Under the pieces are notes generated by a model. That model worked only from the letters and a program-made list of their open reading frames with translations. It ran no database searches and had not been told where the DNA came from. From positions 3,041,501 through 3,105,500 of the forward strand of contig AP018318.1 of NCBI GenBank assembly GCA_003990705.1: a DNA stretch of 64,000 nt, in the 5' to 3' direction. This document shows, piece by piece, positions 9,968 to 16,607 of the stretch. The first letter of the stretch is position 1. Every line of letters starts with the position of its first letter. The DNA is from Nostoc sp. HK-01 (lineage in GTDB: Bacteria; Cyanobacteriota; Cyanobacteriia; Cyanobacteriales; Nostocaceae). Both the position numbers and the translations under genes were made by a program.

Positions 9968-10606
9968 ATGATAGAGTTTGCTGTCATTACTTCAGTAATT
10001 AAGAAATATGCCCCTCAAGCTAGTCAAATAATTATTAAACAAGCTCAAAAAAACGAAGCTGTTATTAAAGTTTTACAAGAATTAAAACTCAATCCTACTC
10101 AAATTATTGATGACGTTGATACTGTTTATGCTTACACACTGGTAAAGTATGGAGTATTTAAGCCAGAAGCAATTTTAAACTTGTTGAGAGAGAAAGTTAT
10201 TAAAGATTTTTTTTGGGATGCTTATAGTAATAATGCTGGTTTTGGGTTTGTAGAAAATACCAAAAAATTTCTGAATCAAAATAGCGAACTCAAAACACAG
10301 ATTATTCATAGTAAAATTAATTTTTCGGCGGAATTAGAGGAATTTGGCGAAACTTTTATTGCAGTTGCAAAACAAACTAAATCATCTAAATATCAGCCTT
10401 ATCCAGATTGGAATTTAGATGTTTATCCCAAAGAGTTTAAAGCTTTAATTTTTGAAAAAACGCGCCTATTCTGTGGGCGTGATTTTGTCTTCAAAGCTAT
10501 TAATAAATTTTTCGCCACTCAACCCAAAGGTTATTTTACTGTGATTGGGGATGCAGGGATGGGAAAAAGTGCGATCGCGGCCATTGGTCACAAGTTAAGG
10601 TTGTGA
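9968..10606 (+). pseudogene. NACHT ATPase with N-terminal adaptor-like domain, 5' fragment (disrupted by IS)
   Basis: This is the front part of a STAND-type NTPase. Residues 1 to about 150 form a helical domain (LNPTQIIDDVDTVYAYTLVKYGVFKPEAIL). I remember a similar domain at the start of Nostoc NACHT-WD40 proteins, where it may act as an adaptor or effector-associated module. Then comes FCGRDFVFKAINKF and the Walker A motif GDAGMGKS with Lys200. After AIA the frame runs into the IS left end and stops at 10606 with a few foreign residues. Removing the IS and one GATCGCGGC copy joins codon for codon to ...AAKYISMIKC at 12201. The full product would have been about 521 residues. As it stands the ATPase is cut between Walker A and Walker B and is probably inactive. 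Confidence 0.85.
10573..10581 (+). repeat. Target-site duplication, left copy (IS)
   Basis: GATCGCGGC here is repeated at 12200-12208, directly outside both ends of the 1618-bp insertion. Confidence 0.9.
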
Positions 10607-11968
10607 GGCAGTTGTCAAGGGGATTTGAGAAGGTGGCTGAAAGAAAAATTCAGGTGTGCCTCGTTGTTGATCAGGGAAAGGAGCAACGATGAGCAACATG
10701 TTTGGTTTTCGTTGTCGTTTAACAATGCCTAAATCTTGATTTTCTGGTGCAGCAAAGTATTTGATAGGGTCAGTTGCCTTACCTTTTTGATGAGCAACAT
10801 AAAAATGATAAAGACCGCGATAAATCATCTCTAGAGAAATGGAGTCAAAAGGTAGAGAAAGTTCGTCGGCGACAGCATCACCTAAATCAACTAACACAGC
10901 ATAAAATAACCAAGTACCCCAAATCTGCAATTGAACACCATTAACAGAACCAGTCCATAAATAACTTAAACCTAAGAGCCGCTTTACAGTATTAAAAGCA
11001 TCTTCAATTCTCCATCTTCGACGGTACAAATCAGCCACAACGTATGGTGGTAAAACTGTAGGTTCAAGCACACTTGTTAAATAAGAATGCCAGGTCTTAG
11101 CTGAACGAACTTCGACCAGACGTAAAGTAATAAAAGGAGTTTTCTTAGTGCCAGAGCCAAGACGTATCAAACGGTCACGTAAAGAAAAGCTATCTGTAAA
11201 TACCTGCTCGACATGAATTGCTGCTCCCTTTTTTAACCGAGTAATAAAATTCACTTTTTGTGCAATTAGTTGTAGCCAGAACTTAAAATGATAAAATCCT
11301 CTATCTAATAAAAGTAAGGTATGGGGAGCTACTGACTTTAAAATATCTGATTCAAAATTTGTATCTGCACTTCTGGAATTTTCATTAAACCAAATTTCTA
11401 CAGGTAAAAAATTGACTAAATCTATAACTGTACAAATTTTTCCAGCTAATTTACCAGGCGGAGCATCTTTTAAACTGTCAAGCTTCTGAAATAAAGCTTC
11501 CAAAATTGAACAATCTACTATCCAAATTTTTTCAAATTTTGACTTAGTTAATTGAACACTTTGGGGGACTTTTCGCCTACTTCTCCTTTGCCAAGAATCT
11601 TGTAATTTTGGGACTAAATCTTTAAAAACTCTTTCAAACAATTGCGCTGGAAATGTCAGAAATCTCTGCGATATTGCTTGTTGGCTCACCTCAAGAGGTT
11701 TACACCACAGAAAACCTTCTCGTGCTAACATTCTGGTTAATTCTGTGGCTCCCGCCACGTCTCGCCACAGTAGAGTTAGCACTGCCGCTACCATTAATGG
11801 TAAGTTGAGAATCCTGTCTCTTAATCCCAGTTGACGGTAGTAATTTTCTTGTGAAGTGATTGCTGGTGTAAGTAACTGCTCAAGTTGAGAAGCAATTACT
11901 TCGTCTTCCATCATTGGGCGTTGCTTCTTTTTAGCATGATCTCGATTGGTTTTACGACTGCTACTCAT
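10595..11968 (-). CDS. IS4-family transposase (DDE)
   Basis: This 457-residue transposase catalyses cut-and-paste movement of the surrounding IS. The acidic triad is visible as Asp in WIVDCS, Asp in LLLLDRGFY and Glu in YRRRWRIEDAFNTVK. The last motif matches the IS4 Y-(2)-R-(3)-E-(6)-K spacing exactly. The basic N-terminus (SSSRKTNRDHAKKKQRP) and helical region before residue 110 probably bind the element ends. The length fits the family and there is no internal stop. The gene runs opposite to the NACHT gene it interrupts. The ATG at 11968-11966 is the first Met of a frame that begins close to the leader. Confidence 0.93.
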   Translation of the reverse strand: MSSSRKTNRDHAKKKQRPMMEDEVIASQLEQLLTPAITSQENYYRQLGLRDRILNLPLMVAAVLTLLWRDVAGATELTRMLAREGFLWCKPLEVSQQAISQRFLTFPAQLFERVFKDLVPKLQDSWQRRSRRKVPQSVQLTKSKFEKIWIVDCSILEALFQKLDSLKDAPPGKLAGKICTVIDLVNFLPVEIWFNENSRSADTNFESDILKSVAPHTLLLLDRGFYHFKFWLQLIAQKVNFITRLKKGAAIHVEQVFTDSFSLRDRLIRLGSGTKKTPFITLRLVEVRSAKTWHSYLTSVLEPTVLPPYVVADLYRRRWRIEDAFNTVKRLLGLSYLWTGSVNGVQLQIWGTWLFYAVLVDLGDAVADELSLPFDSISLEMIYRGLYHFYVAHQKGKATDPIKYFAAPENQDLGIVKRQRKPNMLLIVAPFPDQQRGTPEFFFQPPSQIPLTTASQP

Positions 11969-12055
11969 GGTTTTTTACAATCGCTCAATTACTTGTATTA
12001 ATTGAGTTTGCCATGATTTTGAACAGAGCAAATCATTCTCTCAGACCCGTATGAT

Positions 12056-12130
12056 AATGATAATCAAAAACAGGAGTAGTGGAGAGGGCGAGGGAAGCTC
12101 GCCCTCTCCACCTTCATTACAATTATCATT
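12056..12130. repeat. Strong hairpin flanked by inverted AATGATAAT, inside the IS leader
   Basis: A perfect 14-bp stem (GTGGAGAGGGCGAG at 12079-12092 with 12098-12111) has a 5-nt loop. It is bracketed by AATGATAAT (12056-12064) and its reverse complement ATTATCATT (12122-12130). It lies upstream of the transposase, so it could attenuate outside transcription into the element, or it may be a small palindromic repeat that inserted into the IS. Confidence 0.7.
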
Positions 12131-12199
12131 CTTATGCACCTATATTTATTCTCAAAGACTTATTGACAAAATTCTTTCTCTTCTAACTTGTTCCGAATG

Positions 12200-12208
12200 G
12201 ATCGCGGC
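12200..12208 (+). repeat. Target-site duplication, right copy (IS)
   Basis: This is the second copy of GATCGCGGC. The NACHT reading frame resumes here (ATC GCG GCT, encoding IAA). Confidence 0.9.
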
Positions 12209-13160
12209 TAAATATATTTCGATGATCAAATGTCCTTGTTATTTTAATGTATTCGCAGAAGGACGCAATAAACCAGAACAGTTTTTAGCTAATATCCGTC
12301 AACAATTGATTAAGCGGTATGCTTTGCAAAACTCAGAAAATGCTGATTTAAGAACCTTACTGCAAAAAGCTAGTGAAGAACTCAAAGGACAAAAACTTGT
12401 GATTGTTGTTGATGCACTAGATGAAGTAGAACAAGCAGGAAATAGTAATCTTTTAGATTTACCTCAAAATCTACCTAATGGGGTTTATTTTTTACTGACT
12501 AGACGACCTTATAATCAAGAAACTAAACGTTTAACGTTGTCTCCTGATACACCTGTGGATGAATTGGATTTAACAAAAAGTGATTATATAGCTGCGAGTC
12601 AAGAAGATATCAAAGAGTATATTCAACTTTTTTTACAGAATGATCCTCAACTAAAAACTTGGATTAGCGATCGCCATATTTCAAAAGAGACTTTTACTCA
12701 GGAAATAGCTGTTAAGAGTGAAAATAATTTCATATATTTACGCTATCTATTACCCGGAATTTCTGAAGGTAAATATAACGATTTAACTTTAAAAGGATTA
12801 CCCCAAGGTCTGCAAGATTATTATACAACTCATTGGCAGCGGATGGGGATGGATAATGAATCTAATGAACAAACGGTGAAAATACTTTATATCTTAGTAG
12901 AAAGAGGTGAAGCAATATCTCTCAGCATGATTGCAGAAATTCTTGATGAAGATGAATATAATGTGAAATCGGTGTTAAATAATTGGGTTGAATATATAAC
13001 ACCGACAGTCAATCTAGAAGAAGGAAAAACTTACTATAGTATTTATCATCGGAGTTTCCTAGAGTTTCTCAAAGGACAAGATAAATTAGGTAAAGGTCGA
13101 AAACTATTTAGAGAAGTTAATAAAAGTATGGCTGAGTATATGCTCAAAGAGATGGCATAA
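12200..13160 (+). pseudogene. NACHT ATPase, 3' fragment (disrupted by IS)
   Basis: This is the rear part of the interrupted STAND NTPase. From 12201 the frame reads IAAKYISMIKC and then the Walker B region KLVIVVDALDEVE, YFLLTRRPY (sensor-like) and a helical segment ending YYSIYHRSFLEFLKGQ, typical of NACHT/STAND cores. The frame is open back to an ATG at 12051, but those first 50 codons are IS leader and not native protein. Without Walker A this piece cannot bind ATP normally. The stop TAA (13158-13160) touches the ATG of the WD40 gene and lies in the same frame, so this module and the WD40 module may once have been one protein, as in many cyanobacterial NACHT-WD40 proteins. Confidence 0.85.
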
Positions 13161-15524
13161 ATGAGTAAACTTTCTACTAAATTAGCCGCAAAATCACCAG
13201 AATTTAAAAACTTTTTTATGGGTCAATTTCCTGAAAAACAATTAAAAGCAGGAAACTCGGCAATATATTATCAAACTCTCACAGATTTTGATTTTATTGC
13301 TCTCAAAATTCAAGATCCGCACTTTGGAGTAGAAGCCCTGATTAGGGATTATGATTTGATTGATGATCCAGAGATATTGGACAACTTAGAAGCAGACGAA
13401 AAACTAGATCCAGATAAAATCAAAACTCTGAAATTAATTAAACGTGCTTTACAGTTATCCGCCCATATTTTGAATCAAGATAAAACCCAATTAGTCGGGC
13501 AATTATGGGGAAGATTACAGGCTTTCCCGCAGTCAGAAATCCAGACAATATTAACAGATGCAGTCCAAAGTAAAAGTGAAATTCCGCGATTCCGTCCACT
13601 TACAGCCAGCTTAACTACTCCAGACGGAAAACTACTGCGTACCCTCACAGGACATAATCACTCGGTAAGTGCAGTAGCAATTACACCAGATGGTCAAAAA
13701 GCCATTTCTGCATCTGATGACAGTACCTTAAAACTGTGGGATTTAGAGACAGGAAAAGAAATTTTTACTTTCACTGGTCATTACAGCTATGTAAATACAG
13801 TAGCAATTACACCAGATGGCAAAACCGCCATTTCTGGTTCCGATGACCATACCCTGAAACTCTGGAATTTAGAGACAGGAAAAGAAATCTCCACCCTGAC
13901 TGGTCATTACGGCTGTGTCAATGCAGTAGCAATTACACCAGATGGACAAACAGCAGTTTCTGGTTCCGATGACCATACCCTGAAACTCTGGGATTTGGAA
14001 ACTGGTCAGGAAATTTTGACTCTCATTGGTCATGACAATTGGGTAAATGCAGTAGCAATTACACCAGATGGACAAACAGCCGTTTCCGGTTCTGATGACC
14101 ACAACCTGAAACTCTGGGATTTGGAAACTGGCTTAGAAATCTTTACTCTGAGAGGCCATAACAATTGGGTAAAAACAGTAGCAATTACCCCAGATGGCAA
14201 AAAAGCCGTTTCTGGTTCTTATGATAAAACCCTCAAAATCTGGGATTTAAACACAAGTCAAGAAATATTTACTTTAACTGGTCATCACAACTGGGTAAGA
14301 ACAGTAGCAATTACCCCAGATGGTAAAAAAGCCGTTTCTGGTTCTTATGATAAAACCCTAAAAATCTGGGATTTAGAAATAGGAAAAGAAATTTCTACTC
14401 TTCCTGGCAAACGTTATAATAACGAGGCTACAAATATATTAGACATTACCCCAGATGGCAAAAAAGCTGTAAAAATTTGGGATTTAGCAATAGGAAAGTC
14501 CATCTCTATCCTCACTGGTTATAACGAATGGGTAAATGCAGTAGCCATTACCCCAGATGGCAAAAAAGCCCTTTCTGGTTTAGATGATAAAACTCTGAAA
14601 CTGTGGGATTTAGAAACAGACCAGGAAATCTCTACCCAAACAGGCCATAACGACTGGGTAAATGCAGTAGCTATTACTCCAAACGGTAAAAAAGCTGTTT
14701 CTGGTTCTGATGATAAAACTTTGAAACTCTGGGATTTACCAACAGGAAAGGAAATCTTTACTCTTCCTTTAGAAGCTTATGCAAATACAGGTCATAAAGG
14801 GTGGGTAACAGCAGTAGCTATTACCCCAGATAGCAAAAAAGCCCTTTCTAGTGCATCTGATAACACCCTAAAATTGTGGAATTTAGAAACAGGTCAAGAA
14901 ATTGCTACATTCACAGGTCATCAAGGGTCAATCTGGACAGTAGCTATTACTTCAAACGGTAAAAAAGCGATTTCTGGTTCAGAAGATAACACCCTAAAAT
15001 TGTGGGATTTAGAAACAGGTCAGGAAATTTCCACACTCAGAGGTCATAGAGGTGCAATCTGGTCATTAGCTATTACTCCTGACGCTAAAAAGGCTATTTC
15101 TGGTTCTTGGGATAACACGCTAAAACTATGGAATCTAGAAACAAGTCAGGAAATTTTTACCTTGACTGGTCATACTTATCGAGTCAAAACAGTAGCCATT
15201 ACTCCAGATGGCAAAAAAGCCCTTTCTGGTTCTGATGATAAAACTCTAAAACTGTGGGATTTAGAGACAGGAAAGGAAATTTATACTTTGACTGGTCATC
15301 AAAACTGGGTCAGATCAGTAGCTATCATCACCGATAGCAAAAAAGCCATTTCAAGTTCTGATGACAAGACGATAAAATTGTGGAATTTAGAGATAGGAAA
15401 AGAAATTTCTACTTTTATTGGTGACACATCTATTGTGTGTTGTGCTGTTTCCCCAGACGGCTTGACAATTGTAGCAGGAGAACAATCAGGACGTGTTCAT
15501 TTTCTGGTGTTAGAAGGTGATTAA
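13161..15524 (+). CDS. WD40 repeat protein (about 14-15 blades) of the STAND locus
   Basis: This is a 787-residue protein. Residues 1 to about 150 are a helical lead domain (SPEFKNFFMGQFPEKQ, YYQTLTDFDFIALKI, LIRDYDLIDDPEIL). Then come about 14 WD40 units of roughly 42 residues, each with GH near the front, ITPDG in the middle and LKLWDL at the end, plus a closing strand. The number fits two seven-bladed propellers. Unit 7 is degenerate and lacks about a dozen residues after KKAV. The first six units are nearly identical, a sign of recent duplication or conversion. WD40 arrays in STAND systems act as the ligand sensor. The start ATG directly follows the upstream in-frame TAA, so translation is probably coupled. 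No ATPase motif is present in this polypeptide. Confidence 0.9.
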   Translation: MSKLSTKLAAKSPEFKNFFMGQFPEKQLKAGNSAIYYQTLTDFDFIALKIQDPHFGVEALIRDYDLIDDPEILDNLEADEKLDPDKIKTLKLIKRALQLSAHILNQDKTQLVGQLWGRLQAFPQSEIQTILTDAVQSKSEIPRFRPLTASLTTPDGKLLRTLTGHNHSVSAVAITPDGQKAISASDDSTLKLWDLETGKEIFTFTGHYSYVNTVAITPDGKTAISGSDDHTLKLWNLETGKEISTLTGHYGCVNAVAITPDGQTAVSGSDDHTLKLWDLETGQEILTLIGHDNWVNAVAITPDGQTAVSGSDDHNLKLWDLETGLEIFTLRGHNNWVKTVAITPDGKKAVSGSYDKTLKIWDLNTSQEIFTLTGHHNWVRTVAITPDGKKAVSGSYDKTLKIWDLEIGKEISTLPGKRYNNEATNILDITPDGKKAVKIWDLAIGKSISILTGYNEWVNAVAITPDGKKALSGLDDKTLKLWDLETDQEISTQTGHNDWVNAVAITPNGKKAVSGSDDKTLKLWDLPTGKEIFTLPLEAYANTGHKGWVTAVAITPDSKKALSSASDNTLKLWNLETGQEIATFTGHQGSIWTVAITSNGKKAISGSEDNTLKLWDLETGQEISTLRGHRGAIWSLAITPDAKKAISGSWDNTLKLWNLETSQEIFTLTGHTYRVKTVAITPDGKKALSGSDDKTLKLWDLETGKEIYTLTGHQNWVRSVAIITDSKKAISSSDDKTIKLWNLEIGKEISTFIGDTSIVCCAVSPDGLTIVAGEQSGRVHFLVLEGD

Positions 15525-15527
15525 AAA

Positions 15528-16607
15528 ATGAATAATATCACCCAAAATACAAGTAATATTCCCAGATATCCCCCAGAATTTCAACAAATTATTAACACCA
15601 AAAATCACAACTTTGTCGGACGTGAATTTGTCTTTACTGCTATTAACAACTTTATCAACCAATATGACCGGGGCTATTTTACTATTATTGGTGAACCGGG
15701 AATTGGTAAGAGTGCGATTCTTGCCCGTTATGTCAGCCAAAATCCCGGAACTGTCTATTATAATGTCGAAATTTTGGGTAAAAGTCGCGCTGAAGAATTC
15801 CTGGCGATGGTTTGCAATCAATTAATAGAAATTGCTCAAAATCAAGGGATTAAAAATATACCTGCTGATTTGATTGAATCTACCACAAAAGATAGTAGTT
15901 TTTTATCGTTTTTACTGCAACAAATCAGCGACAAATTAAATTTTCAACAAAGATTAATTATTACAATTGATGGCTGCGATAGAATTGATATCAACAATCA
16001 ACCACGCGGCTCAAATATTTTCTATTTACCACGCTACTTACCAGAAAAAGTTTATTTTATTCTCACTCGTCGTCCTTTTCTCACAGATAAATCAGGTTTA
16101 TTAATTGAAACCCCATCCCAATCTTTAGATTTATCAGTGTACTTAGAAAAAAATCGTGCTGATATCCAAGAATATATTAAAACTTATTTAAATGAATTGT
16201 GCCATTCTGATCATAGTCTGAGTGCCGAGAAGAATTTTGAAGATATTTTACTTAACAATGATGAAACAAATTTTATGTATGTTAGCGAAATCTTAGTAGC
16301 AACTAATAAAGATGTTTATCCCCCAAACTTGCACCTCTATTATCAAAATCATTTAGAAAAGATGAATTTAGCAACTCGTAACCAACAAACAATGGCTTTA
16401 CAGGTGTTAAATATCTTAGTTCAAGAGCAATCAATACCAACAGAAATTATATCAGCAAGATTAGATGCAGATGAATATGAAATTAAGGTGATTTTAGATC
16501 AGTGGCGCGAGTTTCTACATTTAAAATCAATAGCTAGAGAAATTTATTACAGTCTTTATCATGTTAGTTTTTGTAATTGGTTGCGGCAACAAATTTATTC
16601 TAACTAG
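15528..16607 (+). CDS. NACHT-like P-loop ATPase, second copy in the locus
   Basis: This is a 359-residue P-loop NTPase with Walker A GEPGIGKS (Lys61), Walker B LIITIDGCD and LTRRPF, ending in the helical segment YYSLYHVSFCNWL. It is clearly a paralogue of the IS-broken gene: NFVGREFVFTAINNF and GYFTIIGEPG line up with FCGRDFVFKAINKF and GYFTVIGDAG. It lacks the roughly 150-residue N-terminal domain and any sensor repeats. It starts 3 bp after the WD40 stop, so all three genes read as one operon. It may supply ATPase function in place of the disrupted copy, but that is inference. Its stop overlaps the stop of the convergent TPR gene. Confidence 0.85.
   Translation: MNNITQNTSNIPRYPPEFQQIINTKNHNFVGREFVFTAINNFINQYDRGYFTIIGEPGIGKSAILARYVSQNPGTVYYNVEILGKSRAEEFLAMVCNQLIEIAQNQGIKNIPADLIESTTKDSSFLSFLLQQISDKLNFQQRLIITIDGCDRIDINNQPRGSNIFYLPRYLPEKVYFILTRRPFLTDKSGLLIETPSQSLDLSVYLEKNRADIQEYIKTYLNELCHSDHSLSAEKNFEDILLNNDETNFMYVSEILVATNKDVYPPNLHLYYQNHLEKMNLATRNQQTMALQVLNILVQEQSIPTEIISARLDADEYEIKVILDQWREFLHLKSIAREIYYSLYHVSFCNWLRQQIYSN

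Follow-up and report, generated by a model that had tools for sequence, protein, structure and literature searches.

Within a 64,000-nucleotide stretch of the Nostoc sp. HK-01 genome (contig AP018318.1, positions 3,041,501 to 3,105,500; hereafter the window), an insertion sequence (IS) of the IS4 family has interrupted a once-continuous gene for a STAND/NACHT-like ATPase, here named NACHT1. The gene heads a compact, operon-like set, and is followed by a gene for a WD40-repeat protein and one for a second, shorter STAND ATPase, NACHT2. From the sequence comparisons described below we favour, with a probability of about 0.55, the reading that a conserved, NLR-like bacterial set of three genes has by chance lost its effector-bearing ATPase to the IS, and that NACHT2 would have a gating role in this set. 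The host genome (G000; 7.5 Mb in 8 contigs) is that of a Nostoc-like cyanobacterium, and shares genus g1 with genomes G003, G004 and G009, and also with the IS-free relative G008.

The interrupted gene and its insertion sequence

The 5' part of NACHT1 (9968..10581, forward strand; the coordinates take in the first copy of the target-site duplication) encodes an NNH5 helical domain (Pfam NNH5, E = 1.7e-42; 145 bits against a cut-off of 27), a linker, and the Walker A motif GDAGMGKS, and its open reading frame runs on into the IS up to position 10606 (212 residues). The 3' part (12201..13160, forward strand) has no Walker A and encodes the Walker B motif DALDE, the lid and the YHxSF region; it is entered in frame by an open reading frame that begins at 12051 inside the IS. 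The IS itself spans 1618 bp (10582..12199, reverse strand) and is flanked by a 9-bp target-site duplication, GATCGCGGC, at 10573..10581 and 12200..12208. Its termini, CATTGGTCACAAGTTA and (reverse complement) CATTCGGAACAAGTTA, form imperfect inverted repeats that match at 13 of 16 bases, with three mismatches. The transposase frame (10595..11968, reverse strand) is intact and specifies a DDE protein of 457 residues (Pfam DDE_Tnp_1, E = 1e-15; NCBIfam IS4_1, 153.3 bits, cut-off 115). Transposases of the IS4 family carry the signature Y-(2)-R-(3)-E-(6)-K, which is present in the translation as YRRRWRIEDAFNTVK. Ten full-length copies of the IS, including that in the window, occur in G000, and the insertion is for this reason not a chance pattern.

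The reading frame is restored when the IS and one copy of the duplication are removed. In the best phase, the frame stays open for 205 full codons upstream of the insertion site, including one that precedes the ATG, and for 316 downstream; with the codon that straddles the junction this gives 521 codons from the ATG, while the second-best phase offers only 25 and 37. The exact frame repair on excision pointed out in an earlier note on this DNA is thus real, but it is not evidence of function, because any insertion with a target duplication does the same. The empty site is present in G008, where the DNA holds a single GATCGCGGC within an uninterrupted orthologue of 521 residues (identity 97% over the 5' part and 95% over the 3' part). 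Orthologues of the same length in G080 and G050 are likewise intact and span both halves. Beyond these, 52 related loci of the NNH5 type (NACHT1 score at least 300, start at model position 10 or lower; some genomes contribute more than one) read through the segment past Walker A, mostly GDAGMGK[ST].IAAKY, in one unbroken frame. The homologues covering both sides of the junction that the earlier note had anticipated therefore exist, and the orthologues in G008, G080 and G050 run across the edge of the 5' fragment instead of ending there, as they might if the gene had never been continuous. Its description of a 1618-bp IS4-like insertion with a 9-bp duplication, splitting the gene after Walker A, is confirmed by the termini, the IS4_1 match and the empty site.

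The name NACHT needs some qualification. Members of the NACHT clade of STAND ATPases combine a Walker A motif with a Walker B in which a tiny residue is followed by an acidic pair (D[GAS]xDE), and NACHT1 fits this pattern, with GK[ST] and DALDE in all 80 intact genes. The NNH5 match is well above its cut-off, but the Pfam NACHT model scores only 25.0 bits on the intact orthologue L079, below its cut-off of 26.7, and also falls short for the NACHT1 proteins of L128 (26.2) and L145 (24.3). Alignments A3 and A2 showed no convincing similarity to solved structures (best E values 0.052 and 0.51). As for possible replacements in G000, the genome contains a single NNH5 match and hence no evident NNH5 back-up, and the 3' part of NACHT1 matches only itself and NACHT2.

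The window IS resembles other elements of the IS4 family in its DDE transposase, inverted ends, 9-bp duplication and multiple copies, with no difference that matters, and the insertion taken alone is a routine event. Among the ten copies the target duplication is 9 bp long in eight, 8 bp in L004 and absent in L003. Eight of the other copies are mutually identical; the window copy differs from these at 12 bases, and from the ninth, plasmid copy L002, at 11. It agrees with L002 at the 12 variant positions between IS positions 554 and 1133, and with the other eight at the 11 variant positions between 1291 and 1520. Counting five of the L002 differences as one loop inversion, the separation of 12 and 7 events into blocks has P of about 4e-5. 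Because the two sets of differences fall in separate blocks, the window copy, intermediate between L002 and the eight identical copies, looks like a product of exchange between copies or, less probably, of a tree free of exchange. The inverted loop belongs to a hairpin with a 15-bp stem (12078..12112), which lies within the IS upstream of the transposase; the loop (12090-12100) has the opposite orientation in L002. Two of the nine other copies lie within long open frames and seven do not (no phase with more than 34 codons open on both sides). The two interrupted frames, in L005 and L008, resemble GAF- and PAS-type sensor kinases in by-eye naming. The motif HIP1 (GCGATCGC) was considered as the target of the IS and rejected, as the window site is the only one of the ten that contains it.

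A conserved set with two unlike ATPases

The WD40 gene (13161..15524, forward strand) starts at the first base after the NACHT1 stop codon and encodes 787 residues, the first 150 or so forming an N-terminal region ahead of the repeats. After a gap of three bases follows NACHT2 (15528..16607, forward strand; 359 residues), an effector-less short STAND ATPase for which all Pfam matches are to ATPase models, AAA_16 matching from residue 28; it keeps Walker A, and its Walker B, IDGCDR, has no glutamate. Conservation of the set was assessed in 99 loci, comprising the window, 18 hand-picked regions (drawn from the 48 of 100 searched genomes that gave a match) and the best 80 of 203 matches; removal of nine duplicates leaves 90 distinct loci, the window counted. 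A WD40 gene is present in all 72 scored loci, as a separate gene in 70 (window counted) and fused in frame to NACHT2 in two, L094 and L150; these fusions suggest that the WD40 and NACHT2 proteins act together. Where at least 6 kb of sequence is available 3' of NACHT1 (64 distinct loci, window counted), NACHT2 is found in 62, whole in 56 and broken or a remnant in six. Several tandem WD40 genes lie between NACHT1 and NACHT2 in L043 (6225-14354), L121 and L107, and the intact set of Cylindrospermum NIES-4074 (L080) also has an expanded WD40 part. The N-terminal region of NACHT1 is more variable, being NNH5 in 58 intact genes and something else in 22; in L128 an HTH domain takes the NNH5 position. 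Within the family, NACHT1 is present in 102 of 217 genomes (136 matches), and plasmid pB of Chroococcidiopsis sp. CCNUC1 carries all three genes next to a tyrosine recombinase.

The two ATPases differ consistently in Walker B. While DALDE is invariant in intact NACHT1, NACHT2 retains the lysine of Walker A, together with the first aspartate of Walker B, in 62 of 62 genes and the glutamate in none; the complete acidic pair is likewise found in 0 of 62, and the D[GAS]xDE pattern is not matched. The position of the lost glutamate is occupied by R (23), C (11), A (10), F (6) or other residues. The histidine of the YHxSF region is kept in both proteins (80/80 in NACHT1, 62/62 in NACHT2). In a tree built from every second sequence (40 of 80 NACHT1, 31 of 62 NACHT2, and four single-chain proteins), the 31 NACHT2 rows make up one side of a branch with 100/100 support. 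The Chroococcidiopsis plasmid copy has DALDE in NACHT1 and DALDA in NACHT2. Three more distant plasmid relatives keep DALDE; one has an EAD4 domain and another a trypsin-like domain, each situated where NNH5 would be, and the third has neither. Since these more distant relatives keep DALDE, loss of the glutamate in NACHT2 looks derived. NACHT2 is probably a non-hydrolysing partner that seems able to bind ATP. Two side observations concern rhizobial plasmids: in L176 (6302-8128) a distant ATPase relative is joined to a trypsin-like peptidase and is itself split by a stop, and in L177 (6200-8155) another adjoins an esterase-like gene.

Based on these features, a mechanism can be outlined in which the WD40 protein would sense an invader or damage. 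NACHT2, ATP-bound or turning over slowly, would join the WD40 protein to NACHT1 and gate the ATP-driven assembly of the latter. NACHT1 would hydrolyse ATP and assemble, and its N-terminal domain (NNH5, or for example HTH) would act directly or recruit an effector. A cut-and-paste element of the IS4 family entered NACHT1 after the split from G008, between Walker A and the remainder of the nucleotide-binding domain, as the insertion itself, the empty site and the conserved frame show; that NACHT1 thereby lost its function, and that chance was the cause, is what we infer. The set should then be silent in the IS-bearing strain, because the sensor and NACHT2 remain while the sole NNH5 ATPase is broken. 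More tentatively, and at somewhat less than even odds, the set may represent an undescribed kind of split NLR in cyanobacteria, with a hydrolysing effector ATPase, a detached WD40 sensor, and NACHT2 as a conserved, non-hydrolysing paralogue that serves either as a nucleation subunit or as a gate locked in one state. Titles and abstract openings, mostly of papers outside subscription journals, yielded no description of a NACHT1-WD40-NACHT2 set, and the accessible part of a 2017 survey of seven cyanobacteria reports no WD40 gene whose neighbouring genes are broadly conserved in all of them (PMC5587647).

Several observations weigh against the favoured reading. The loci are near kin of the query and not a random sample, and two of them, L118 and L156, have no NACHT2 within 9 kb. 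PADLOC assigns no named system and gives weak STAND matches for the two ATPases (best Avs1b, 2e-13, and STAND_TPR, 3.7e-7); its strongest match is that of the WD40 protein to HEAT-ARM_XIII (4.1e-46), which we take to reflect common WD40 repeats. In NACHT2, the residue that precedes the lost glutamate is still aspartate in 40 of 62 genes (N in 18, H in 3, E in 1), and because either member of the pair may be the catalytic acid, the term non-hydrolysing is a prediction. The recurrent two-ATPase architecture would make it possible to test directly how the subunits of an NLR-like complex divide ATP binding and hydrolysis among themselves, a question that is posed for paired plant NLRs too. On the split-NLR reading, the IS-bearing strain would offer a natural case in which sensor and gate are left behind and the effector ATPase is gone, and together with the IS-free G008 it makes up a natural pair of broken and intact states.

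Age and cause of the insertion

Compared with G008, neither NACHT1 fragment contains a stop or frameshift. The ratio of replacement to silent substitution rates (dN/dS) is 0.089 for the 5' part and 0.185 for the 3' part (dN 0.015-0.023, dS 0.12-0.16), against 0.127-0.244 for six neighbouring genes; for the first 150 codons of the WD40 gene alone it is 0.296. On the branch to the window there are 8 replacement and 9 silent changes in the 3' part, and 1 and 8, respectively, in the 5' part; the corresponding numbers for the branch to G008 are 6 and 6, and 4 and 4. This lack of decay supports an insertion that is young only relative to the split between G000 and G008 (dS 0.12-0.16 in the gene). 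The suggestion that the insertion is probably recent holds in this relative sense, but the intact ends and transposase on which it was based give no date, since the window copy differs from the eight identical ones. For the same reason, and in view of the blocks of differences that suggest exchange, identity among IS copies was rejected as a clock. Divergence from G008 is greater in NACHT2 (82% amino acid identity, dN 0.076, dS 0.31) than in the adjacent broken NACHT1 (95-97%), which suggests either recombination or faster evolution of NACHT2.

The earlier note also suggested, as an inference, that the loss would fit an unneeded or harmful immune gene. For a harmful gene, the data give no support, and the comparison of broken with intact copies speaks against this. 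NACHT1 was scored as broken in nine loci, of which L126 is a tandem duplication, leaving eight, the window counted; L126, L151 (contig end), and L097 and L152 (NACHT2 cut by contig ends) were excluded from the test. Broken and intact copies then number 8 and 80 for NACHT1 and 6 and 62 for NACHT2 (Fisher P = 1, with or without the window), and part of the broken genes may be sequencing errors in draft genomes. Across the 217 family genomes, 4 of 136 NACHT1 matches have a stop inside the matched stretch, and one of these four stops, in G017, falls where the frame is about to end anyway; this count is blind to insertions and frameshifts, as illustrated by the window, which scores as having none, and by L211, which holds a frameshift. 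Selection for the insertion because NACHT1 is costly or self-toxic would be in keeping with the seven further related loci in which the gene is broken, and with the toxicity that such proteins can have when over-produced, as for LypABC in the accessible part of its description (PMC13236601). Breakage is, however, no commoner in NACHT1 than in NACHT2, few family genes have internal stops, and the IS shows no leaning to immune genes over its nine other sites (named by eye, without a family search), two of which are in sensor-kinase-like frames and seven outside long frames. We therefore regard selected loss as quite improbable.

Three NACHT1 genes, from different lineages, have an in-frame TAA a few codons past DALDE, with the remainder of the frame open (L053:6767, which equals L122:9238; L098:9229; L123:9250). 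For the clustering near Walker B, where three of five fall in a span of 7 codons, P is about 0.007 with the choice made post hoc; it possibly reflects a mutational hot spot at GAA/CAA codons, or chance. Further hits checked for recoding at these codons were the same genes again or were broken elsewhere.

Two other explanations concern what the genes do. The halves of NACHT1 might still be made separately, and cooperate or have acquired new functions, the 3' part starting within the IS and an IS promoter driving WD40 and NACHT2. The open frame from 12051 that leads into the 3' part would allow this, and there is no sign of decay in the 3' part, WD40 or NACHT2; a young insertion predicts the same absence of decay, however, and Walker A is parted from Walker B within the nucleotide-binding domain. 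Promoter-like matches between 9500 and 13300 number 11, compared with a mean of 13.7 in shuffled sequence, and thus show no excess. Functional halves appear very improbable on this evidence. A less remote alternative, still unlikely in our view, is that the set is a cyanobacterial regulatory or developmental signalling module and not an immune one. It draws on the replacement of NNH5 by HTH in at least one NACHT1 (L128), and on the window neighbours, a histidine kinase, a KTSC protein, an alcohol dehydrogenase-type gene and a TPR gene, among which there are no known defence genes. The patchy presence of the set in the family and the plasmid copy beside a recombinase nevertheless fit conflict systems better, as do the varied N-terminal regions and the relatives with EAD4 or trypsin-like domains.

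Relation to known systems

Among the closest parallels to the proposed three-gene NLR-like set are bNACHT proteins and cyanobacterial single-chain NNH5-WD40 proteins, which resemble it in having an N-terminal domain, a STAND ATPase and a repeat sensor. Single-chain proteins with WD40 repeats were retrieved by the NNH5 search in L164, L165 and L167 (1435-1483 residues). Unlike these, the set described here has its sensor in a separate gene and includes a second ATPase. The NACHT cores of four sampled single-chain proteins (GEFGTGKT, FDGFDEM) are distant from NACHT1 in the tree, so that these proteins are not simply fused versions of NACHT1, and a fused NNH5-NACHT-WD40 protein as direct ancestor is unsupported by the tree. 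In tripartite bacterial NLR-related proteins the repeat sensor is similarly part of the ATPase chain, whereas WD40 is separate in 70 of 72 loci here. At the N terminus, where such proteins have an effector or adaptor-type domain, NACHT1 of the window has NNH5, which may act in that way. Avs1b of AVAST type 1 shows weak STAND similarity to the 3' part of NACHT1 (PADLOC, 2e-13), which reaches 30.8 bits, far under the NCBIfam cut-off of 1500.

A precedent for the pairing of unlike ATPases is provided by LypABC, a CARD-NLR-like system of Caulobacter, in which, according to the accessible part of the report, a canonical ATPase, LypB, is accompanied by LypA with a divergent ATPase domain (PMC13236601). 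LypA is reported there to be without the conserved Walker A and B residues, and changes in its ATP pocket are said to abolish function. As in our set, one canonical and one divergent ATPase are combined in a tripartite arrangement, a likeness of organisation. From what is accessible of that description, the systems differ in that LypA has a CARD and a peptidase, while NACHT2 is without an N-terminal domain and has kept Walker A, and in their repeats, which are TPR-like in LypABC and of the WD40 type in the NACHT1-WD40-NACHT2 set.

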